A DNA stretch of 44,847 nt, from IMG/VR virus record IMGVR_UViG_3300046500_000124, positions 1-44,847 of that record; one strand, 5' to 3'. Below the pieces are notes generated by a model, which saw nothing but the letters and a program-made list of their open reading frames with translations, searched no databases and was not told the origin of the DNA. The DNA is from a virus. Below are positions 1,152 through 11,976 of the stretch, piece by piece (positions within the stretch are counted from its first letter, which is position 1; each line of letters starts with the position of its first letter). Both the position numbers and the translations under genes were made by a program.

Positions 1152-2324
1152 GTGGCAATAGACGAAAACCTTCGCCAGTTTGCCACGCCGAGGCAACTCG
1201 AATTCCTCGAGGTCGTAGATCGGCTGGGCTCCGAGCGGAAAGCCGCTGCTGAGTTGGGCCTGAGTCACGGCACGATCGGGAATGCCATTGCGTCGCTGAA
1301 GAAGAAAGCGGCAAAGATGGGTTACGCGCCTGAGTGCCATATGACTCGCGCCGTACCCGATGGCTTCTTTCTGCGCGGCACATCGACTTACTTCAATAAA
1401 GATGGCGAGGTCGCCGGTCAATGGGTCAAGAACCAAATTGACCATGACAGGCAGCGGGAAATATTCCAGGCTGCGTGCGATGCATTTTGCGAGACGATTC
1501 CGCGCGTCCGCCCCAGACCCGCTCAGGCACACGGTAACGCCGATCTGCTGAATTGCTTTGTTATCACCGATTTCCACTTGGGCATGTTGTCCCATAAAGA
1601 AGAGACTGGCGCCGACTGGGACATCAAGATAGCCGAGAACATGATCATTCGGTGGTTCGAGCAAGCGATTGCTCAGTCGCCGGATGCAGAAACGGCAGTT
1701 TTCGCGCAACTCTCGGATTTTTTACACGCGGATTCGGTAGAAGCCCTTACCCCAGCGTCAAAACACGTTTTAGACGTCGATACTCGATTCCATAAGGTAG
1801 TTCGTACGGCAATCCGCATCCTGCGAACCGTGATTGACATGCTGCTCGCGAAGCACAAGCGGGTGCATATCGTCATGGCGGACGCAAACCACGATCCCGT
1901 CAGCCAGATATGGATGCGCGAGTGGTTCTCTGCGCTCTACGAGAATGAGCCGCGGATCACGGTAGACCGCAGCCCGTCCCCGTACAACGCGTATGAGTTC
2001 GGCAAGACGGTGCTGTTCTTCCATCATGGCCATAAGCGCAAGGTGACGAACGTATCCGAAGTCTTCGCGGCACAGTTCCGCGAGATTTTTGGTCGTACCA
2101 AATACGCATATGCCCACACTGGACACCTCCACAGCATCGACGTGAAGGAAAACAACCTGATGGTGGTCGAGCAGCACCGTACGTTGGCCGCTCCGGATGC
2201 TTACGCCGCTCGAGGTGGCTGGTTGTCGGGCCGCGATGCGAAGGTGATCACCTACCACCGCGAGTACGGCGAGGTCAGCCGCGTGACCATCAACAGCAAT
2301 ATGCTTATGCCGGTGGCCGCATGA
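1152..2324 (+). CDS. Helix-turn-helix plus metallophosphoesterase protein
   Basis: The GTG start at 1152 follows AAGGGGAAACC. Residues about 10-55 form a helix-turn-helix (RKAAAELGLSHGTIGNAIAS). The remainder carries calcineurin-type phosphoesterase motifs in order: DFHLG near 139, SDFLHAD near 188, an NHD near 245, HGH near 291 and GHLH near 323. These supply the Asp, His and Asn ligands of a two-metal site. The likely role is a phosphodiesterase or nuclease acting on a specific DNA site; proteins of this make-up occur beside terminase genes in tailed phages. The substrate cannot be read from sequence. The stop overlaps the next gene as ATGA. Confidence 0.85.
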   Translation: MAIDENLRQFATPRQLEFLEVVDRLGSERKAAAELGLSHGTIGNAIASLKKKAAKMGYAPECHMTRAVPDGFFLRGTSTYFNKDGEVAGQWVKNQIDHDRQREIFQAACDAFCETIPRVRPRPAQAHGNADLLNCFVITDFHLGMLSHKEETGADWDIKIAENMIIRWFEQAIAQSPDAETAVFAQLSDFLHADSVEALTPASKHVLDVDTRFHKVVRTAIRILRTVIDMLLAKHKRVHIVMADANHDPVSQIWMREWFSALYENEPRITVDRSPSPYNAYEFGKTVLFFHHGHKRKVTNVSEVFAAQFREIFGRTKYAYAHTGHLHSIDVKENNLMVVEQHRTLAAPDAYAARGGWLSGRDAKVITYHREYGEVSRVTINSNMLMPVAA

Positions 2325-2677
2325 CCTACCCCAGCACTCAGAACGCCAGCGCAGGCGCAATCCCCGTCTACATCGTCTCGCAGCCAACCAGCGGACCATG
2401 GCCGAATAGCCAGAGCAACGCAAACGGCGCGATTCCCGTTGTGTTCGTGTCGCAGCCCGGCGCCGGACCGTGGCCGAATGACCAATCGAAGGCGGGAGGC
2501 GCGATCCCGGTTCGTGTCGTGAGCGCACCGACAGGCAATAGGCCATTCCCGAGTGACCAGGGGCAGAACGGCGCTATACCGGTGTGGGATGCAACGACCT
2601 TGCCGGCGCATGCTGCGTCGTATCCGAATGGACAGAACAAGGCCGGTGCGGCTATTCCCGTTTGGCGAATTAATTGA
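2321..2677 (+). CDS. GAIPV tandem-repeat protein (118 aa)
   Basis: The ATG overlaps the upstream stop (ATGA at 2321-2324), suggesting translational coupling. The protein is built of about five repeats of 20-25 residues, each ending near GAIPV or AIPVW and separated by linkers such as GPWPNSQSNANG. Proline, asparagine and glycine dominate, and there is no signal peptide or membrane segment. Such short beta repeats would suit a surface or adaptor protein, but I know no assigned function. It lies directly before the terminase genes, probably in one operon with the metallophosphoesterase. Confidence 0.75.
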   Translation: MTYPSTQNASAGAIPVYIVSQPTSGPWPNSQSNANGAIPVVFVSQPGAGPWPNDQSKAGGAIPVRVVSAPTGNRPFPSDQGQNGAIPVWDATTLPAHAASYPNGQNKAGAAIPVWRIN

Positions 2678-2730
2678 GATAGAAGTCTCGGCCGCTCGCA
2701 AGTGCGGAAGACGATTCAACCTAAAAGAAT

Positions 2731-3387
2731 ATGGCGCAAGAAAAGAAACCTGCGCCGGACTGGGAGCGCATCGAAGCTGACTACCGGGCCGGCGTTCTGT
2801 CGATTCGGGAAATAGCCGCATCGCAGGGCATTACCGACACCGCGATTCGTAAGCGCGCAAAGCGGGACGAATGGGTCCGCGATCTTGCTGAGCGCATACA
2901 GGCAAAGGCTGACGCGCTGGTTCGCGCTGCACAGGTTCGCAGCGAGGTTCGCACGGGAAACTCGATTCCTGAGCGCGAACTGATCGCCAGCAATGCCGAG
3001 ACGGTTGCGACCGTAAAGCTGACGCAGCGTAGGGATATTTCCCGCGCGCGCACGCTTGCCATGTCCCTGCTGGGTGAGTTGGAGGCACAGACCGTCGATA
3101 TCACGCTCTTCGAAGAGCTGGGCGAAATCCTCCGCTCCGACGATGACAAGGGGCAGGACAAGCGAAACGACCTTTACAACAAGGTCATCTCCAGCGCTGG
3201 GCGGATTGACAGCATGAAGAAGCTGTCTGACACCCTAAAGACATTGATAGGGCTTGAGCGCGAAGCTTATGGCATCTCGGCGCCTCAAGAGGTCAACGTG
3301 AACGCTACGGTGAACAGCAAAGGCCCGCGCGAACTAACAGACGAAGAACTGGCCGCCGAGCTTGCCAAATATGGGATCGAACCATGA
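2731..3387 (+). CDS. terS: Terminase small subunit
   Basis: The 218-residue product starts with a helix-turn-helix (IREIAASQGITDTAIRKRAK, residues about 25-45), the DNA-recognition part of many small terminase subunits. A long charged helical middle, probably the oligomerisation core, follows. The C-terminus (ELTDEELAAELAKYGIEP) is of the kind that binds the large subunit. Its place directly before, and overlapping, the ATPase gene supports the call. It would select phage DNA for packaging. The ATG at 2731 has only a weak ribosome-binding site. Confidence 0.85.
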   Translation: MAQEKKPAPDWERIEADYRAGVLSIREIAASQGITDTAIRKRAKRDEWVRDLAERIQAKADALVRAAQVRSEVRTGNSIPERELIASNAETVATVKLTQRRDISRARTLAMSLLGELEAQTVDITLFEELGEILRSDDDKGQDKRNDLYNKVISSAGRIDSMKKLSDTLKTLIGLEREAYGISAPQEVNVNATVNSKGPRELTDEELAAELAKYGIEP

Positions 3388-4864
3388 AAAGCTTGCTCTT
3401 CTAAAGGAAGCAAGGCTACGCCAGTGTCGCGCCGACTTTCTGACGTACCGCAAGACCATCAACCTGACGGCTAAATGGGGCTGGTGGCAAATAGAGATTG
3501 CGAAAGAGCTTCAGCAGTTTTACGAAGACCTGATTGCAGGAAAGCGCCCGAAGCTGGTCATCCAGGCGCCCCCGCAGCATGGTAAGTCGGTTCAGATCAT
3601 CGACTTCATTTCGTGGGTAGCCGGCAAGCATCCAGAGTTCAGGACGATCTACACATCGTTTTCGGATCGACTTGGTATTCGCGCTAACCTTCGGCTGCAG
3701 CGGCTCTATGACTCGGAACTCTATGCCGAGATATTCCCCGGGACCACGATAAACCGCTCCAACGCGGTCACTCTGTCTGGGCAGTATCTCCGCAACCGGG
3801 AGATTCTAGAGTATGTCGGGAAGGAAGGATTCTTTCGAAACACGACTGTCCGCGGTTCGATCACTGGCGAGTCGCTAGACCTTGGCGTGATTGATGACCC
3901 GATCCGAGGGCGTCAGGACGCGAACAGCCCGACGATCCGCGATGCAGCCTGGGATTGGTTTACAGACGACTTCTTCACGCGATTCAGCGAAGAGGCTGGA
4001 CTGCTTGCGATCCTGACGCGCTGGCATGTGGATGATCCGATCGGGCGATTGATCGATCGCTACCCCGACGTCAAGGTGCTCAGTTACCCGGCTATCGCCG
4101 AAGTGAACGACGAGCACCGGAAGGCCGGTGATGCCCTGTTCCCTGAGCATAAATCGGTCGAGTTCCTGCGGGAGCGCGAATCGATCATGGACCGGGCGAA
4201 CTGGCTAGCCTTGTACCAGCAGCGCCCAACAGCGTCCATGGACGGCACATTATTCAGCGTCGAAAAGATGCTGGTCGACGGTCAGCCTGTCCAGATACCG
4301 AAAGGATGCGACTACGTTTTTGCTGTCATGGACTCCGCTTTCAAGGCGGGAGATAAGAACGACGGTACGGCTGTTACGTACTTCTTGCGTAATCGCCACA
4401 TCGGACATCCATTAATCATTCTGGATTGGGAAATCGTCCAGATTGAAGGCGACCTCATTGCGAACTGGTTTCCGTCGATCACTGCGAGGCTTGAGGCGTT
4501 GGCGAGGGAGTCCGGCGCGCGCATGGGTAGCGCGGGATGTTTCGTTGAGGACAAAGCCAGCGGCATCCTTCTTCTGCAGCACGCTGCACGCAATGGATGG
4601 CCTGCGCATCCGATCGACAGCAAATTGACCGCAATGGGCAAGGATGCACGCGGCGTGGCCGTCTCCGGTTATGTCTACCAGGGACAAGTCAAGATGAGCG
4701 AGCTGTCGTACAACAAGGTCCTTAAATACAAGGGTCGCACGCAAAACCATTTCATGACGCAGGTATTCGGTTATCAGCTTGGGGTTCCCAACCAGAGCGA
4801 TGACCTATTTGATACCGCAACTTACGGCATTGCAATCGCCTTGGGCGACGGCGACGGGCTCTAA
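3371..4864 (+). CDS. terL: Terminase large subunit (packaging ATPase/nuclease)
   Basis: A Walker A-type motif (QAPPQHGKS) lies at residues about 65-73 and a Walker B-like LGVIDDP near 178. The C-terminal half has acidic residues of an RNase H-like nuclease (FAVMDSAFKAGDKNDGTAV, later EDKASG and DDLFDTATYG). It cuts concatemeric DNA and drives it into the prohead through the portal. The ATG at 3371 overlaps the small-subunit gene; a TTG at 3362 is the alternative start. At 497 residues it has the usual family length. Confidence 0.95.
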   Translation: MGSNHEKLALLKEARLRQCRADFLTYRKTINLTAKWGWWQIEIAKELQQFYEDLIAGKRPKLVIQAPPQHGKSVQIIDFISWVAGKHPEFRTIYTSFSDRLGIRANLRLQRLYDSELYAEIFPGTTINRSNAVTLSGQYLRNREILEYVGKEGFFRNTTVRGSITGESLDLGVIDDPIRGRQDANSPTIRDAAWDWFTDDFFTRFSEEAGLLAILTRWHVDDPIGRLIDRYPDVKVLSYPAIAEVNDEHRKAGDALFPEHKSVEFLRERESIMDRANWLALYQQRPTASMDGTLFSVEKMLVDGQPVQIPKGCDYVFAVMDSAFKAGDKNDGTAVTYFLRNRHIGHPLIILDWEIVQIEGDLIANWFPSITARLEALARESGARMGSAGCFVEDKASGILLLQHAARNGWPAHPIDSKLTAMGKDARGVAVSGYVYQGQVKMSELSYNKVLKYKGRTQNHFMTQVFGYQLGVPNQSDDLFDTATYGIAIALGDGDGL

Positions 4865-4879
4865 CTTAAATCATCCCCC

Positions 4880-6295
4880 ATGGCAGAAATCACAATCGCA
4901 GGATCAAAGCTGTCTTCGGCTTTGGCCGATCTGCTAATGGCGGATGAAATCGTTCCGGGCGCGGAGCCGAGTTATCAGTTGTGCAAGCAGATATACGCGT
5001 ATCACCCGCTTGGCTCAAAGATTGTCGATCAGCCGATCAAGATCGCGATGAGCCAGCGGCGCAAGATAACAGTCCCCGTTGTAGATGAAGAGCGCATCAC
5101 CGAGGCATTCGAGCGCAAGTGGGACGAACTAACCATCGACGACAAGATTGCAAATACGTGGCGTCTGAGCAAGATCTACGGCGCTGCAGCAATCGTCTTC
5201 GGTGCGAAGGATGTCGATACAAAGTCGCCCATTAAACCGGAAGACCTGGCGAAGCTCGAGGCGACGCTATATTTCAATGCGCTCGACCCGCTTAATACTG
5301 CGGGTTCGCTGGTGTTGAATCAGGATCCGAATGCGCCGGACTTCCAGAAGCCGACCACGGTAACCGCTGCTGGGCAGACGTATCATCCTTCCCGCTCGCT
5401 GGTTCTGTTTAACGAGGCGCCGCTGTACATCGAATACAGCAATTCAGCATTTGGCTACACAGGCCGCTCCGCCTACCAGCGCGCCCTCTTCCCGTTGAAG
5501 TCATTCGTGCAGACGATGATTGCAGACGATATGGTCGCGCGCAAGGTGGGTGTGATCGTTGCGAAGATGAAGCCAGCCGGATCGATTGGCGATCGCGCAA
5601 TGGCAGTCCTGCAGGGCATCAAGCGAAACGTCGTCAAAGAAGCGCAAACCAACAACGTTATCAATATCACACCCGAAGAGGCGATTGAGACGCTGAACCT
5701 TCTCAACGCAGATGGTGCACTGACGACGGCCCGCAAGAACATCCTAGAGAATGTCGCCGCGGCAGTTCCGCAGCCGGCGAAAATGCTCAATTCGGAATCT
5801 TACGCCGAAGGGTTCGGCGAAGGCACTGAAGACGCGAAAGAAGTAGTTCGCTATATCAATCACGAACGCAAGACGGTCAAGCCGCTTTACAGTTTCTTCG
5901 ACGCCATCGTCATGCGACTGGCGTGGAGCGAGGAATTCTTCGAGACGGTTAAGGCTGAGGTCAAAGAATACCGCGGCATGTCGTACACCGAGGCGTTCTA
6001 TCAGTGGAAAAACGCGTTCTCCGCTGAGTGGCCGAATCTGCTTGAAGAGCCTGAATCGGAGATGGTGAAGGTCGAGAAGGTCAAGTTCGAAGCTTTGACT
6101 GCGGCACTGGAAGTGCTCAAGCCAGATTTGGACCCAGACAATAAGGCGCGGCTCATCGAGTGGTTTGCGAACAATGCGAACGAATCGAAGAAACTGTTTG
6201 TCAGCCCTCTGAATCTCGACTACGACGATTTGCGCAACTACGAGCCGCCGACACCCGACCCCGAGCCGATCGAACCGCATCCGAAAAATATTTGA
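4880..6295 (+). CDS. Portal protein, DUF1073 type
   Basis: This 471-residue protein lies between the large terminase and the minor head protein, the usual portal position. The N-terminal part (YQLCKQIYAYHPLGSKIVDQ), the WRLSKIYGAAAIVFG segment and the ALDPLN motif are typical of the DUF1073 portal family. A long helical C-terminus ends in a Pro/Glu-rich tail. It would form the dodecameric DNA channel at the capsid vertex. The stop overlaps the next start (TGATG at 6293-6297). Confidence 0.85.
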   Translation: MAEITIAGSKLSSALADLLMADEIVPGAEPSYQLCKQIYAYHPLGSKIVDQPIKIAMSQRRKITVPVVDEERITEAFERKWDELTIDDKIANTWRLSKIYGAAAIVFGAKDVDTKSPIKPEDLAKLEATLYFNALDPLNTAGSLVLNQDPNAPDFQKPTTVTAAGQTYHPSRSLVLFNEAPLYIEYSNSAFGYTGRSAYQRALFPLKSFVQTMIADDMVARKVGVIVAKMKPAGSIGDRAMAVLQGIKRNVVKEAQTNNVINITPEEAIETLNLLNADGALTTARKNILENVAAAVPQPAKMLNSESYAEGFGEGTEDAKEVVRYINHERKTVKPLYSFFDAIVMRLAWSEEFFETVKAEVKEYRGMSYTEAFYQWKNAFSAEWPNLLEEPESEMVKVEKVKFEALTAALEVLKPDLDPDNKARLIEWFANNANESKKLFVSPLNLDYDDLRNYEPPTPDPEPIEPHPKNI

Positions 6296-8085
6296 TGGCC
6301 GCCCAATCCTTCTATCAGGTCGTCAGCGAGGCAATCCGCGAGTTTGAAGAGTTCGGCTTCGATTCTGTCGAGCGCCTTCAATACTGGACAGAGCGTATCC
6401 GTAAGGCCGCAGTCGAAACGCTGACGCCTGAAAGCGTGCTCAATAGCGAACTGACACGCGTCCTGACTGGCACGTACAAGCGGCTCATTGACGACGGCCA
6501 GATCCTCAAGGCACATCCGGGCATCGCACGATTCACCGTCGATCGCCTGAAGCCAAAGCTTCGCACCGAGTTGGACCGGCGCCTGATGGTGTCGCGCAAC
6601 TTGATCAATCTGAACCGCGAGCAGGCCATCGACAAAACGGTACAGCGCTTCGCTGGCTGGGCTTCGTCGGTACCCGCTGGCGGAAGTCGCGCAGTAGATG
6701 TGAAGGACGCGAAGGACAATATCCGGAAGGCTCTCACTTCACTGTCGTTTGAAGAGCGCCGGGTTGCGATCGACCAATCGCATAAGTTCGTCGGGGCACT
6801 GAACGAGATTATCGCGGTCGACGGCGGCGCAATCGCCATGCGCTGGAATAGCCAATGGCGGCGTCGTGGGTACGGCTACCGCGTCGAGCACAAAGAGCGC
6901 GACCAGAAGATTTATCTACTCCGCAGTAGTTGGGCGAAGGATAAGGGTCTGGTCAAGCCTGGTCCTGCTGGCTATTACGACGACATCACCAAGGTTGGCG
7001 AGGAAGTCTATTGCTTCCCCGGCGACTCAAAAGTCCCATACGCTGGTCTCGTTGAAAAAGCGTTCCGCCGTTGGTACGAGGGCGCTCTTACCGAAATCGT
7101 CACGGACTCTGGAAAAACGATTCGAGCTACACCGAATCATCCAGTCCTGACGAGCACTGGCTGGAAGGCTATTGGTTCGCTCAATGAGGGCGACGACATC
7201 ATTGAAGTTGCCGAAGAACTGATCAAGCCGCTTGAAGAAAACCAATATCACGGCGTAGCCAGCATTGCGGAGATATTCGGCGCGCTCGAGAAAAATGGCA
7301 TCGTTGAGACGCTTGACCTCAGGCCCGCAGATTTCCACGGCGATGGTCGGCAAGGCAACGTCGATGTTGTACTTCCCGCACGGGAACTGACTTTCGACTA
7401 TATGACCTCGCCCGCTAAGAGCGGCGATCAGTTCGGGCTCACCGAATCCCACGGCACGGGCGCGGGATTGGGCCATCTTGATCAGGGAGTCTTCGCTTCT
7501 TTTGCTTCCGCGCACAGCATTATGCGCATTGGCAACAAGTTCCGCCTTTTCTTGATTAGAAAGCTTCGCCATGCGGTTAAATCCGGCCGCCACAGCATCG
7601 CGCAACGGAACGCCGGCATTCTTGAGGCATTTCGTAATTGGGCCGCGTGTAACTCCAAGGCGCTTGGCAATGGACAGCACGCTTTCTCCACCGAGATAGG
7701 CGTCGACGATACCTTGTGTGTCGAGTTTAAGTATGCGTCGTTCGACAGCAACATTGCGACCGACATCAAATCCAGTAGCCTGGATTCTATTCACGAGAGT
7801 ATGGAAGTTGATTCCGATGATGTCAGCAATCTCAGGAACGGTCTTCCCTTCGCCTCGCAATTGGCGTACGTGGTCAAAGTCAACAGGAGTTGGTTTTCTG
7901 GGCATGTCTTCAACCTTCAAACAGAACATTCGTTGTACGTAGTGAATGGAATTATAGCGCACAACTGTTCTTGCTTCGCGACTTGGCTATATAACTTGAG
8001 AGATTTACCCGAAGACATGATCACGGTGGCCGGGAAGAAATCATTTGAAGACGCCCGCGCGAAAATCGCCGCTATGAGAACCTGA
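6295..8085 (+). CDS. Minor head (Mu gpF-like) protein interrupted by an intein
   Basis: The 596-residue precursor has a helical N-extein (residues 1-239) ending in a conserved stretch ([20 protein letters not shown] to EEVY). The C-extein (558-596) begins [18 protein letters not shown], the CxC-type C-terminal motif of Mu gpF-like head morphogenesis proteins. Residues 240-557 are an intein, described separately. Excision would give a 278-residue mature protein that sits with the portal inside the prohead. The start overlaps the portal stop. The first C-extein codons after the insertion are unusually AT-rich (CTA, TTG, AGA, TTA). Confidence 0.88.
7027..7905 (-). CDS. Putative homing endonuclease encoded antisense inside the intein
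   Basis: The 292-residue product has a first helix-turn-helix (residues about 15-45, [20 protein letters not shown]) and a second (about 63-95, [20 protein letters not shown]) ending in the [10 protein letters not shown] signature common in homing nucleases. A Vsr/DUF559-like PD-(D/E)XK region follows (about 155-225), with E157, D182 in KYNIDVAL and E191 in TIAVEICG. The start at 7905 has GAAGG 8 bases upstream on its own strand; an in-frame ATG at 7962 lacks one. It begins inside block F and ends at the TGA opposite block A. Its codons pair exactly with sense codons. Such proteins cut intein-less alleles; activity here is inferred. Confidence 0.75.
   Translation of the reverse strand: MPRKPTPVDFDHVRQLRGEGKTVPEIADIIGINFHTLVNRIQATGFDVGRNVAVERRILKLDTQGIVDAYLGGESVLSIAKRLGVTRGPITKCLKNAGVPLRDAVAAGFNRMAKLSNQEKAELVANAHNAVRGSKRSEDSLIKMAQSRARAVGFGEPELIAALSGRGHIVESQFPCGKYNIDVALPTIAVEICGPEVKRLNDAIFLERAEYLRNAGYAVILVFFKRLDQFFGNFNDVVALIERTNSLPASARQDWMIRCSSNRFSRVRDDFGKSALVPTAERFFNETSVWDF
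7951..7956 (-). promoter_or_regulatory. Candidate -10 element for the antisense endonuclease
   Basis: The reverse strand reads a perfect TATAAT here, 45 bases upstream of the endonuclease ATG at 7905. It is formed by the ATT-ATA isoleucine codons of intein block G. No good -35 hexamer stands at 17 bases, so the promoter might be weak or need an activator. The AT-rich C-extein bases just beyond could act as an upstream element. Confidence 0.4.
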
Positions 8086-8086
8086 T

Positions 8087-9997
8087 ATGCCATTAGAGAA
8101 AGGATCGTCGCAAGCGGCAATCAGCGCCAACATAGCGACTGAAGTGAACGCCGGGAAGGATCCGAAACAGGCTGCCGCGATTGCATACAGCGTGGCAGGC
8201 AAGAGCAAGGCTGACTCGGAAACAGTGAAAGCCGCCGGCACGCTGGTCGTCGCAGACGGCAACGTGCTGTTCCTGCGCCGCGGCAACGGTGGCGATCACC
8301 CGGGCGAATTTGCATTTCCTGGCGGACACATCGAAGTTGGGGAAACTCCCGAAGAAGCCGCCCGTCGCGAGACACAGGAAGAAACCGGCTATGAGCCGCA
8401 CAAGCTCATCGAGTTGGGCAAGTCCGATGACGGCACGGCCGAGTTCACCACGTTCTATAACGAATGTCGGCCGTTCGATGTCGCACTGAGCGACGAGAGT
8501 ACGGAGTTTCTGTGGTCGCCGCTAGGATCGTGGCCCGAACCTCTGCACCCTGGCTGCCGCTTCGTGCTCGAGTCGGATGCATTCAAGGCGATCCGCAAGG
8601 CGCACATGACCGAGACGGACCTCGCACGCGCGATGGTCGCGGGCGATTATTCGTCGCCGCAGTTCTTCGTGAATATGTGGCTGTTCGACATTCGCATCAC
8701 GGGCACAGGAACCTCTTACCGATCGAAGGACGAGGAATACGTCTACCGGCCGCCAGAGGAATATCTCAACGATGAGTTCCTGGCGCGCTGCAATGGCTTG
8801 CCGGTCATCGTCGACCATCCGGAGAACTCGAATCTGAACTCCGAAGAGTTCAAAAAACGTTCTGTCGGGTCGGTCATGTTGCCCTACATCAAGGGCGACG
8901 AAGTCTGGGCCATTGTCCGAATCTACGACGAAGCGACCGCGACTCTCATGTCGAAGGAGCAACTTTCCACGTCGCCGAACGTCGTCTTCCGGAATCCGAA
9001 GCTGGAAAACACCGTTGTAACCCTCGACAACGGCGAGAAGGGTCTTATTGAGGGAAACCCAAAACTGCTCGACCACATCGCGATCTGCGAGGTTGGCGTG
9101 TGGGACAAGGGCGGTCCGCCTACTGGCGTATCTACCACCAACGTTCAGGAACCTGAAATGAATGAAGAAGAGCGTAAGGCCAAGGCGGACGCCGAGGCAA
9201 AGCAGGAACTCGAAGCGAAAGCCAAGGCCGATGCAGAGGAGAAATCCAAAGCAGACGCTGAGGAAGAAAAGTCCAAGGCTGACGCAGAGCGCTGGGACAA
9301 GTTGATGTCGGCTGTCGACTCGCTGGCAAAGCGCATGGACTCGATGGAAGAAAAGGACAAGCCTAAGGCGGATGCCATGCCGGGCGAAGAACTTCCGGTG
9401 GCCGACAAGAAGGCTGACTCGGAGAAAGAATCCGAGAAAAAGGCCGACGCCGAAGAAGAGAAGAAGGAAGAGGAAGCGAAGGCCGACGCTGCGAAGCGTG
9501 AAAGCGCCCTGTTCGATCGCATCAGCCAACTCGAAAAGATGCTGGTGCAGACCGCGCAGCTGGCTGTGAAGCCGCTCACCGACGCTGACCACGCTGCATT
9601 CGCTGACGTGCAAGCCAAGGCCGATGGCATCTATTCGGCGTTCGGCAAGCAGGCATCGCGCGCGCTCAACGGCGAAGACGTGCTGGCGTACCGCAAGCGC
9701 CTCGCCGCTCCGATGAAGTCGCACAGCGCCGCGTGGAAGGATGTCGATCTGACCAAGCTCGAGGCCTCGGTGTTTGATATCGCCGAATCCGCCATTTACG
9801 CTGATGCAGCACAGGCCGCCAATCGGCCGGTCGATGGTTTCGAAAATGGCCCGCGCGCACGTACGCGTCAACTCGCGACAGGCCATACGGTGACGGAATT
9901 CTTCGATAACCGCCCGTCGTGGATGGACAGTTTCCGTACGCCGCGCGTCATGAGCAAGAAATCCGATCTGCAAAAAGTCGCTAGCAACACCCACTGA
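8087..9997 (+). CDS. Nudix - DUF2213 protease-like - scaffold fusion protein
   Basis: Three parts are visible in 636 residues. A short N-terminal segment ([14 protein letters not shown]) is followed by a Nudix hydrolase domain (about 48-165) with a full Nudix box starting [20 protein letters not shown] at residue 80. Residues about 190-360 resemble the DUF2213 prohead-protease-like domain, with a conserved LSTSPNV and a later DHIAICEVG that could supply Ser and His. Residues about 358-490 are a charged coiled coil with repeated KADAE units, as in scaffolds, followed by a conserved C-terminal domain. The likely role is prohead scaffolding and maturation. The Nudix substrate is unknown. Confidence 0.8.
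9158..9997 (+). CDS. Possible nested scaffold product (internal start)
   Basis: An in-frame ATG at 9158 has AGGA at 9147-9150, 7 bases upstream, exactly where the protease-like domain ends and the coiled coil begins ([17 protein letters not shown]). This matches the lambda C/Nu3 arrangement, where a scaffold is made from an internal start within the protease gene. It would give a 279-residue scaffold without the Nudix and protease parts. This is inference from the site and the domain boundary. Confidence 0.4.
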
Positions 9998-10044: not shown

Positions 10045-10062
10045 ATTTCAGGATAGGAAAAA

Positions 10063-10947
10063 ATGGCAATTAATACGCCTTTCTACCCGTACGCGACTAC
10101 GAATGCTGCTCAGTCGTTCTCCGTACAAAGCGCGGGTTACGTTCAGGGTGTGTATCAAGACGCTCCGGCCCTTCGATATTCGCTCATGACCGGCACGCTT
10201 TCTGCCAACGCAACCGGCCCGGTATGGGGCGGCATGGCGATTTCGGAAAGTATCGCGCCGGCATCGGGCTATGACCGTACGCAGGGCGGCACTATCGCGG
10301 CTGCTACAGCTGTCGCGAACGTCACGGGTTTCTCGGTGTTCAACAACGCCTATGCATGGCCCGGTTCGCCGCAAAGCCCGGTTCCGATGGCCGGCGCTTC
10401 GGGCATGACGATCCCGTTCTTTCGCATGGGCTCGGGTATCGAGATCCCGGTTGCAATGGACCAGTCGCTCGTTTCGCTCAGCGGCGGCCTGATCACGCAA
10501 CAGGTTTCGTGGGACCTCAATAACCAGATTCTGGTGCCGTTCAACGCATCGACTGGTACGGTCAGCGTTACCTCGATCACCTCGTCGTTTGCGAGTGGCG
10601 TCTATACGTTCGCCGTTGTGACGGCTGCTGCAGCCAATGTCGGCGCTGTCGGTGACGAAATCTTCGTCGCTGGCGTGACCGGCACGGGCGCCGCGCTTGT
10701 CAACGGCTCGCAAACGCTTACGTCCTTCACCGACAACCAGCATTTCAGCTTCCAGGTGACCGCGGCTTCGGGCGCGATCGCGACTGGCGCGCTGACGGGC
10801 ACGATCACGCTGGTTCAAGGCACGGGCGCACTGCCGGTGAAGATCGTCGACATCAATGTCGGCAACAGCATGACGGTTGTCTACAACCCCACCACTGGTG
10901 CGGCTACCTGGAATCGCCAGGGCTCTACCGCTCTCATCCAACTCTGA
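10063..10947 (+). CDS. Probable capsid decoration/cement protein
   Basis: The 294-residue protein sits directly before the major capsid gene. It has no charged coiled coil and is rich in Gly, Ala, Ser and Thr. The N-terminal part (PFYPYATTNAAQSFSVQSAG) and the core resemble phage structural cement proteins. Residues about 165-260 are a beta-rich module (VTSITSSFASGVYTFAVVTA) like those in the sheath and baseplate J proteins here, probably surface-exposed. A good AGGAAAAA ribosome site precedes the ATG. It probably stabilises the capsid lattice; position is the main evidence. Confidence 0.65.
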   Translation: MAINTPFYPYATTNAAQSFSVQSAGYVQGVYQDAPALRYSLMTGTLSANATGPVWGGMAISESIAPASGYDRTQGGTIAAATAVANVTGFSVFNNAYAWPGSPQSPVPMAGASGMTIPFFRMGSGIEIPVAMDQSLVSLSGGLITQQVSWDLNNQILVPFNASTGTVSVTSITSSFASGVYTFAVVTAAAANVGAVGDEIFVAGVTGTGAALVNGSQTLTSFTDNQHFSFQVTAASGAIATGALTGTITLVQGTGALPVKIVDINVGNSMTVVYNPTTGAATWNRQGSTALIQL

Positions 10948-10956
10948 GGTTAAACC

Positions 10957-11976
10957 ATGGCGAATCTTGTACCCGCACAGATTCGGGTCAGCCCGCATTA
11001 CCTGATCCCCGAACTGCTTCTTCAATACCAGCAGGCATCCGGCGCATTCGACCTGATTGCAACGGGTGACCCGCTCGTGCGCCTCGGCGAGGGTGACCTC
11101 GCTGTCTACGGCAAGCGGATGGAAGTCCGTACCGCCGTGCAGACCGGCCAGTTCGTTTCGAACGCCGTGCCGAGCTGCACCGTCGTCTACAGCGAATTCA
11201 GCACGCCGACGTACATGATCCGTTCGCGCGCTGAGTATGACCATCACGACACGGCCGCACTCGGTCGTGTTGGCGCGTCGTCGGTCGAAGCCCATCGTCT
11301 GGCCATGCGTCAGGCAACGTTCCAGCAACAACGGAACCTGCTGTTGTACGGCGCGAATCCGGCGAACGGCGAAGGCCTCGTCAATGCGAACGGCGCGACG
11401 GCAATCAACCTGCCGGCAGACTCGAATGGAAATTCGACCGTCTCGACGTATGACAATGGTCAACTCGCGTTCTTCCTGCTGCAGCAAATGGGCAACATCA
11501 AGCGCCGGACCATGCAAATCGGTGTTGGCGTTCGCTTCTCGGTGACGACCACGCAGGAAATTCTCGAGCAGATTTCCTATCCAGGCATCGTGCAACTCAC
11601 GCAGTTCCAACGCACTGGCGCTGGCTCGGAGACGACCCAAGGCCTCGTCGAAGACGTACTCGCACGGAACGACGATGCGATCACCTGGGGTGCGGATGAC
11701 ACGCTCATTGGCAAGGGCGCAGGCGGCACGGATCTGATCATCATTTCCATGCCGGAGGTGAAGAAGCCGAAGGGTGGCCGTATCAACACCAACGAGTTCG
11801 CGGAACTCACGCCGGGTCTCCAGGCTTGCGCGCTGCAACTCGTCGACCGTGCCGCTCCGACCGAAATTACCGCGCCGCTTCCCGCGGGTGCTGTTGACGT
11901 CGTGTCGGAATTGCGTTCGACCTCGGGTTGGTCGACTCGCCCGGAAAGCTTGACGCTCATCTCGGCCGGTTTCTAA
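10957..11976 (+). CDS. Major capsid protein, DUF2184 type
   Basis: At 339 residues it has the expected size, and it follows scaffold and decoration genes. The opening (PAQIRVSPHYLIPELLLQYQ), the aromatic YMIRSRAEYDHHDTAALGR region and the C-terminal ELTPGLQACALQLVDRAAP stretch match the DUF2184 major capsid family of myophages, an HK97-fold group. It forms the capsid shell. The ATG lies 9 bases after the decoration gene stop with a GAGGT-like site. A structured RNA element follows. Confidence 0.85.
   Translation: MANLVPAQIRVSPHYLIPELLLQYQQASGAFDLIATGDPLVRLGEGDLAVYGKRMEVRTAVQTGQFVSNAVPSCTVVYSEFSTPTYMIRSRAEYDHHDTAALGRVGASSVEAHRLAMRQATFQQQRNLLLYGANPANGEGLVNANGATAINLPADSNGNSTVSTYDNGQLAFFLLQQMGNIKRRTMQIGVGVRFSVTTTQEILEQISYPGIVQLTQFQRTGAGSETTQGLVEDVLARNDDAITWGADDTLIGKGAGGTDLIIISMPEVKKPKGGRINTNEFAELTPGLQACALQLVDRAAPTEITAPLPAGAVDVVSELRSTSGWSTRPESLTLISAGF

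Follow-up and report, generated by a model that had tools for sequence, protein, structure and literature searches.

A phage intein with a predicted homing endonuclease gene encoded antisense to it

The window analysed here, the whole 44,847-nucleotide stretch of a 44.8-kb IMG/VR virus, contains a MuF-type minor head gene that is interrupted by an intein, and the strand opposite this intein carries a second long reading frame with the features of a nuclease gene. We consider it very likely that the insert is a mobile intein in which one strand of the DNA codes for the splicing machinery and the other for the mobility enzyme. The window probably represents a widespread class of phage inteins in which the mobility enzyme is always antisense and in register, the start codon and ribosome-binding site are taken from block F, and the active site is partly dual-coded.

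According to the proposed mechanism, the sense frame would be translated together with the head gene and the Hint-fold intein would splice itself out; most of the central sense linker (about residues 130-266) has no confident fold and would exist mainly as the complement of the gene on the other strand. That second gene would give rise to a distinct protein, built from one or two helix-turn-helix (HTH) domains plus a Vsr/DUF559-like nuclease; the complement of the block F His, Asn and Leu codons would supply both its start codon and its ribosome-binding site. When two phages infect the same cell, this protein would cut the MuF allele that lacks an intein, near the NC^RC-type site, and repair of the break would copy the intein with both genes. 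Splicing, expression of the antisense gene, the cleavage site and homing are what we infer from the sequences.

The interrupted head gene and its two reading frames

The head gene starts with an ATG at position 6295, is preceded by a portal-like gene and was matched by the profiles phrog_324 (head morphogenesis, 8.4e-22) and phrog_15127 (2.8e-47). The Cys1 codon of the intein occupies positions 7012-7014 and the intein ends with ...IIAHN at 7965, followed by the +1 Cys; TPNH represents block B and GHVFNLQ block F. All hallmarks of a class 1 intein (Cys1, TxxH in block B, C-terminal His-Asn and Cys, Ser or Thr at +1) are present, as the first-pass annotation had claimed, and both a curated intein profile and a Hint fold were found for the sense protein. 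The profile PF14890 (Intein_splicing) matched with 43.3 bits (cut-off 35.8; 4.4e-11) and TIGR01445 matched the N-terminal splicing region. AlphaFold2 (AF2) placed the two Hint halves at residues 1-128 and 278-318, mostly with high pLDDT, and the nearest structures in Foldseek were known inteins (RecA/RadA/DnaB). The intein is predicted to splice itself.

Most of the sense linker was modelled with a pLDDT below 50 and no endonuclease family was detected in the sense frame by family profile search, in agreement with the earlier claim that the linker has no LAGLIDADG or HNH motif. Instead of lying in frame with the intein, as in the canonical type, the predicted endonuclease is located on the opposite strand, in a frame running from an ATG at 7905-7903 to a stop at 7029-7027 and encoding 292 amino acids (Table 1). 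The boundaries given for the intein (7012-7965) and for the reverse frame (7905-7027) were exact to the base, and the central proposal of the first-pass annotation, a splicing element and its nuclease on opposite strands of the same DNA, is borne out by the frames, their register and the dual selection described below.

The next structural protein (8087-9997, plus strand) starts with an apparent Nudix hydrolase domain; the same was observed in the relative L001.

Table 1. Positions of the sense and antisense features in the window
Feature	Position	Strand	Evidence
MuF-type minor head / head morphogenesis gene, intein-interrupted	6295..8085	+	phrog_324, phrog_15127
Class 1 intein, 318 aa (Cys1 ... 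His-Asn318, +1 Cys)	7012..7965	+	PF14890, TIGR01445, AF2
Block B TPNH	7129..7140	+	Sequence; sense residues 40-43 conserved 0.88-0.99, constraint mainly sense
Antisense homing endonuclease gene (predicted), 292 codons + stop, wholly within intein, in register	7027..7905	-	Conservation, fold, homology
Antisense ATG, reverse complement of block F His298 codon (CAT)	7903..7905	-	
Shine-Dalgarno-like AAGG, 8 nt 5' of antisense ATG, complement of block F Asn-Leu codons	7914..7917	-	
First helix-turn-helix, antisense residues 10-43	7777..7878	-	AF2 helices; HTH_23
Second helix-turn-helix, antisense residues 63-96	7618..7719	-	AF2 helices; HTH_58; antisense-only constraint
Vsr/DUF559-like PD-(D/E)XK nuclease domain, residues 156-245	7171..7440	-	77-sequence alignment; 3hrl, 3r3p matches
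Dual-coded motif, sense FHGD (108-111) over antisense 188-191 (x-A-V-E), including putative catalytic E191	7333..7344	both	
Antisense C-terminal tail (246-292) opposite intein blocks A/B	7030..7170	-	Conserved mostly through sense strand

Distribution of the antisense family and evidence for mobility

Relatives were gathered by searches seeded with the antisense protein alone. Using tblastn, matches were obtained in 118 of 50,697 phage records; among the matches listed, the position falls under genes annotated as head/MuF or hypothetical proteins, and in all loci that were read the annotated gene runs opposite to the antisense match. The relatives derive from phages of Klebsiella, Edwardsiella, Gordonia, Pseudomonas, Vibrio and Salmonella/E. 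coli as well as from many IMG/VR contigs, and seeds restricted to the antisense core retrieved more than 100 further contigs. The 163 matches found with the endonuclease as seed were classified with HMMs for the N and C blocks of the intein. In 154 of them the endonuclease gene lay antisense to an intein whose two splicing blocks share a single ORF. The remaining nine comprise one split locus, loci at contig edges and loci in which the C block matched weakly; a full-length endonuclease that was free-standing or encoded on the intein strand was not found among these 163. Some contigs repeat each other, leaving 107 distinct endonuclease DNA sequences and, after an 85% identity filter, 77 for the alignment. 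The register was identical in all 147 loci checked, codon position 1 of the antisense frame lying opposite position 3 of the sense frame.

A scan of genome contigs with the window antisense protein gave no match, and a scan with the Pseudomonas-type alignment revealed one prophage, in Atlantibacter. Within 399 genomes of the same phylum, both full-length matches were antisense in inteins, and the other matches were partial, nuclease or HTH proteins lacking intein blocks. No match was obtained when phages were searched at the DNA level, and PADLOC reported no defence match. By sequence comparison, the antisense arrangement extends beyond a single gene or site: it recurs at a second MuF site, in a deaminase-like gene and in a Helicobacter prophage.

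At the second MuF site, in Escherichia phage fEg-Eco06 (1838-3775), the insertion point of the intein, STT^CRARDG, lies upstream of HPN^CRS, the usual one. The deaminase-like case, Virus Rctr197k (2165-3517), concerns an apparent dCMP/cytidine-deaminase gene with a PCxxC motif which is annotated 'putative head morphogenesis', probably owing to its intein. In Salmonella phage vB_StyS-sam (1388-1789, plus strand), the annotated hypothetical protein ORF43 corresponds to a fragment of the antisense gene.

Exact empty alleles at one site were found. Intein-free close relatives of the window head gene read GEEVYCSCF, in which GEEVY is joined exactly to CSCF, and Kagunavirus fEg-Eco19 is without exactly the 272 codons of the Snoke intein. 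The element was also less diverged than the flanking host gene: between Snoke and BPS11Q3 the intein differs by 0-17% and the N-extein by 13-53%, and a Klebsiella pair and the Vibrio phages 1.113/1.197 showed the same tendency, although such low divergence could partly reflect double coding and not recent transfer. The Gordonia trio showed no lower divergence for the intein than for the extein. Taken together, the exact empty alleles and the low intein divergence support homing.

Distances of endonuclease, Hint domain and extein were correlated (r 0.53-0.64; endonuclease versus extein, Mantel r 0.62), so vertical descent with the phage lineage is also common. Long retention in lineages, which this correlation makes conceivable, would suit a nuclease that is real and mainly serves the phage, by excluding intein-free competitors or by regulating the head gene, and it is a general property of phage homing enzymes that they put competitors at a disadvantage. 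We consider a role of this kind in place of homing unlikely, as the exact and scattered intein-free alleles in close relatives and an intein divergence below that of the extein point to transfer, and exclusion would use the same cleavage and is compatible with homing. The antisense nuclease very probably spreads the insert, and from sequence and structural models we strongly infer that it deserves the name of a mobility enzyme.

The antisense nuclease, its start signal and selection on both strands

Family searches with the single window antisense protein yielded weak matches to HTH_23/HTH_58 and MTES_1575, so that the family became clear only by alignment: MTES_1575 was matched by 13 of 18 aligned relatives (best 1.2e-6), the window protein itself remaining below Pfam's own cut-off, and the sequence profile of the family matched PDB entries 3hrl (2.5e-6) and 3r3p, which is I-Bth0305I (1.9e-5). 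The first-pass annotation had proposed AlphaFold as a check of the reverse product. The AF2 model (mean pLDDT 91.3) comprised two HTHs and a nuclease fold, its C-terminal part being less certain because the alignment carries sense-derived conservation into this region. The two HTHs already recognised in the first pass correspond to modelled helices and to HTH_23/HTH_58; the first is missing from short members of the family. In Foldseek, the homing endonuclease I-Bth0305I was the top PDB match (probability 1.00, target TM 0.71, E 7.5e-3) and 3hrl was a further top match.

Six residues (M1, E156, Y179, N180, D182 and E191) were invariant in the 77 sequences. E156, D182 and E191 form the E...D...E constellation of Vsr/DUF559/MTES_1575 proteins, and 3hrl aligned over all three. 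The strict PD-(D/E)XK motif is lacking, with no conserved Lys two residues after E191: the window has Cys at position 193, and the relatives vary there. The earlier description as a Vsr/PD-(D/E)XK-like segment therefore holds for the acidic residues and the 3hrl and 3r3p matches but not for the motif Lys. With respect to the EDxHD type, the I-Bth0305I catalytic domain was matched in sequence and fold; in the 77-sequence alignment E, D and a further E were conserved, and no invariant H and D were found. These data support the assignment of the antisense product as a Vsr/DUF559-like nuclease with HTH DNA-binding domains and predicted activity.

An antisense ATG or GTG lies opposite the block F His in 116 of the 124 loci with a recognised block F. 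This His is encoded by CAT in 60 of 65 nonredundant loci compared to 27.2 expected (z 9.4), the block F Leu by CTC in 48 of 62 compared to 10.6 expected, and an SD-like 4-mer was present in 51 of the 65. Among 64 relatives, most have the ATG 60 nt from the end of the intein, and the antisense frame stops inside the intein in 61. The codon bias at the start and SD positions indicates translation of the antisense gene. Small genes on the endonuclease strand end just upstream of it in Klebsiella phage RCIP0054 and Edwardsiella phage MSW-3, so that transcription from outside would be possible there; a sigma-70 scan of the window revealed no sigma-70-like antisense promoter near the antisense start.

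In the homologous inteins, which had been suggested for comparison in the first pass, the reverse frame was kept open; the one clearly disrupted copy (L107, ~948-1695) carries a frameshift, or an assembly error, that breaks both frames at one point. Neither of the refuting outcomes named in the first pass, a reverse product unlike any nuclease and a reverse frame interrupted by stops with the sense frame intact, was observed. Homing endonucleases often decay after fixation, and together with this frameshifted copy this might suggest that the antisense gene was active ancestrally and is now decaying in the window. Such decay is very unlikely: the window copy retains all invariant residues, the start and the SD-like site, and its linker is more similar to that of L001 in the antisense (identity 0.70) than in the sense frame (0.53). 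Even less probable is that the reverse transcript acts mainly as an antisense RNA on the head-gene mRNA, with a protein of little weight; a transcript of the antisense gene would pair with the MuF mRNA, but selection acts at the amino-acid level and the codon bias at the start and SD positions points to translation. We retain a translated antisense nuclease as the preferred reading.

The length of the frame is uninformative alone, as antisense ORFs of 415 and 454 codons also occur elsewhere in the window. These two (10048-11295 and 8522-9886, respectively, minus strand) lie over structural genes and are probably open by chance in GC-rich DNA. Across the 14,750 codons of overlap in 75 loci, neither frame contained a TTA, CTA or TCA codon, where extein codon usage predicts 314 (sense stops) and 461 (antisense stops), a result that is somewhat inflated by the requirement for an open sense ORF, although 154 of the 163 endonuclease-seeded matches already had one. 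In all 13 pairs compared, the exteins vary mainly at sense position 3 and the linker mainly at sense position 1, which is the antisense wobble position, and in every pair antisense identity exceeded sense identity in the linker; for the N-extein of the window and L001, antisense identity was 0.35 and sense identity 0.72. The frame is open even in AT-rich members (the Helicobacter prophage and Aaphi23). As controls, the topoisomerase intein of Staphylococcus LY01 showed antisense stops throughout, and the SPbeta RNR intein 16 in-register antisense stops and a LAGLIDADG-like domain in the sense frame. The latter was considered as an earlier example of an antisense endonuclease and rejected, being an ordinary intein with an in-frame endonuclease.

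A dual-coding map, generated by randomising synonymous codons column by column, located the constraint along the two frames. It falls on the antisense frame only at antisense residues 70-182, on both strands at residues 184-192 and 208, a span that includes E191 and the sense FHGD, and mainly on the sense frame at residues 238-292, opposite blocks A/B. In the FHGD/E191 columns z was 7-12 for sense and 3-21 for antisense; in the antisense tail (246-292) it was mostly 9-16 for sense and mostly low for antisense. Sense residues 79-128 belong to the region that is folded in the model of the intein. The sense motif F.A...DFHGDG (7276-7344, sense residues 89-111) is conserved beyond what antisense coding explains. 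Since the last ~50 antisense residues are conserved mainly via the sense strand, the independently conserved enzyme is, by this column test, about residues 1-240, a minor correction to the first pass, where the whole 292-residue frame was described.

Judged by these substitution patterns, the antisense frame is not a chance ORF and purifying selection acts on each strand. The notion of a non-coding shadow of the conserved sense intein, held open by GC bias and the in-register frame, could draw on the long chance antisense ORFs of the window and on the C-terminus, which is largely such a shadow, but it can practically be dismissed and was rejected by the codon-position pattern, linker substitutions favouring the antisense wobble position, in addition to the E/D/E residues invariant in 77 divergent sequences, the confident fold with nuclease matches, and a frame open in AT-rich members when control inteins are full of antisense stops.

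Relation to known systems and implications

With canonical inteins such as PI-SceI, PI-PfuI and the SPbeta RNR intein, the window intein shares the Hint domain, an endonuclease located between blocks B and F and, as predicted here, mobility by cutting of the empty allele. In those inteins the sense protein itself includes the endonuclease as one of its domains, described as nested at a single conserved point of insertion (PMC6801210), whereas here it would be a separate antisense protein. Enzymes of the I-Bth0305I type have DNA-binding modules attached to the nuclease (PMC3943268). The antisense family shares the nuclease fold and sequence similarity with I-Bth0305I (EDxHD/Vsr-like; 3r3p; Taylor 2011; Dassa 2009, 'Fractured genes') but differs in its N-terminal HTHs, its E-D-E set and its dual coding with an intein. 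We know of no description of I-Bth0305I-type enzymes in which they overlap a second coding frame.

In nuclear rDNA group I introns, antisense genes for His-Cys homing endonucleases are known, and their expression and cleavage have been demonstrated (PMC9548176). These share the position of the endonuclease gene opposite the splicing element; there, however, the host is an RNA intron and the gene lies in a peripheral loop, so that two proteins are not doubly encoded. An insertion in phage ShiLan is open in the host frame and hides an overlapping HNH endonuclease in another frame (PMC11855218). The ShiLan enzyme is encoded on the same strand, with no splicing domain and no RBS detected (PMC11855218), whereas the type found in the window is antisense, Vsr-like, located inside a real intein and equipped with an SD-like site.

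The antisense-endonuclease intein is a mobile intein, and as such of a known kind, with an apparently new arrangement whose closest precedents are the rDNA introns and ShiLan. Two works, by Gosselin, Arsenault & Gogarten (2025, bioRxiv, 'Actinobacteriophage Inteins ... Non-Canonical Architecture') and by Gorbalenya (1998, 'Non-canonical inteins'), could touch on an antisense arrangement, going by their titles and by their citation for overlapping frames in PMC11855218. Our literature search revealed no antisense intein endonuclease, although Gosselin 2025 or Gorbalenya 1998 may anticipate one. A survey of mycobacteriophage inteins (PMC5050341) does not mention antisense coding.

If true, the arrangement would constitute a new genetic architecture for inteins and would allow the nuclease to be expressed independently of the late capsid protein. 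One DNA stretch would encode two unrelated proteins in opposite directions in many tailed phages, providing a rare and statistically clean case of a long antisense protein overlap, with more than 100 distinct loci, one fixed register and selection that is measurable per strand. The antisense gene takes its visible start signal from a catalytic motif, block F. Such antisense genes lie unannotated beneath genes labelled 'head morphogenesis', in phages that are in culture and infect model hosts. Six-frame, conservation-based scans are worthwhile for inteins that seemingly lack an endonuclease.
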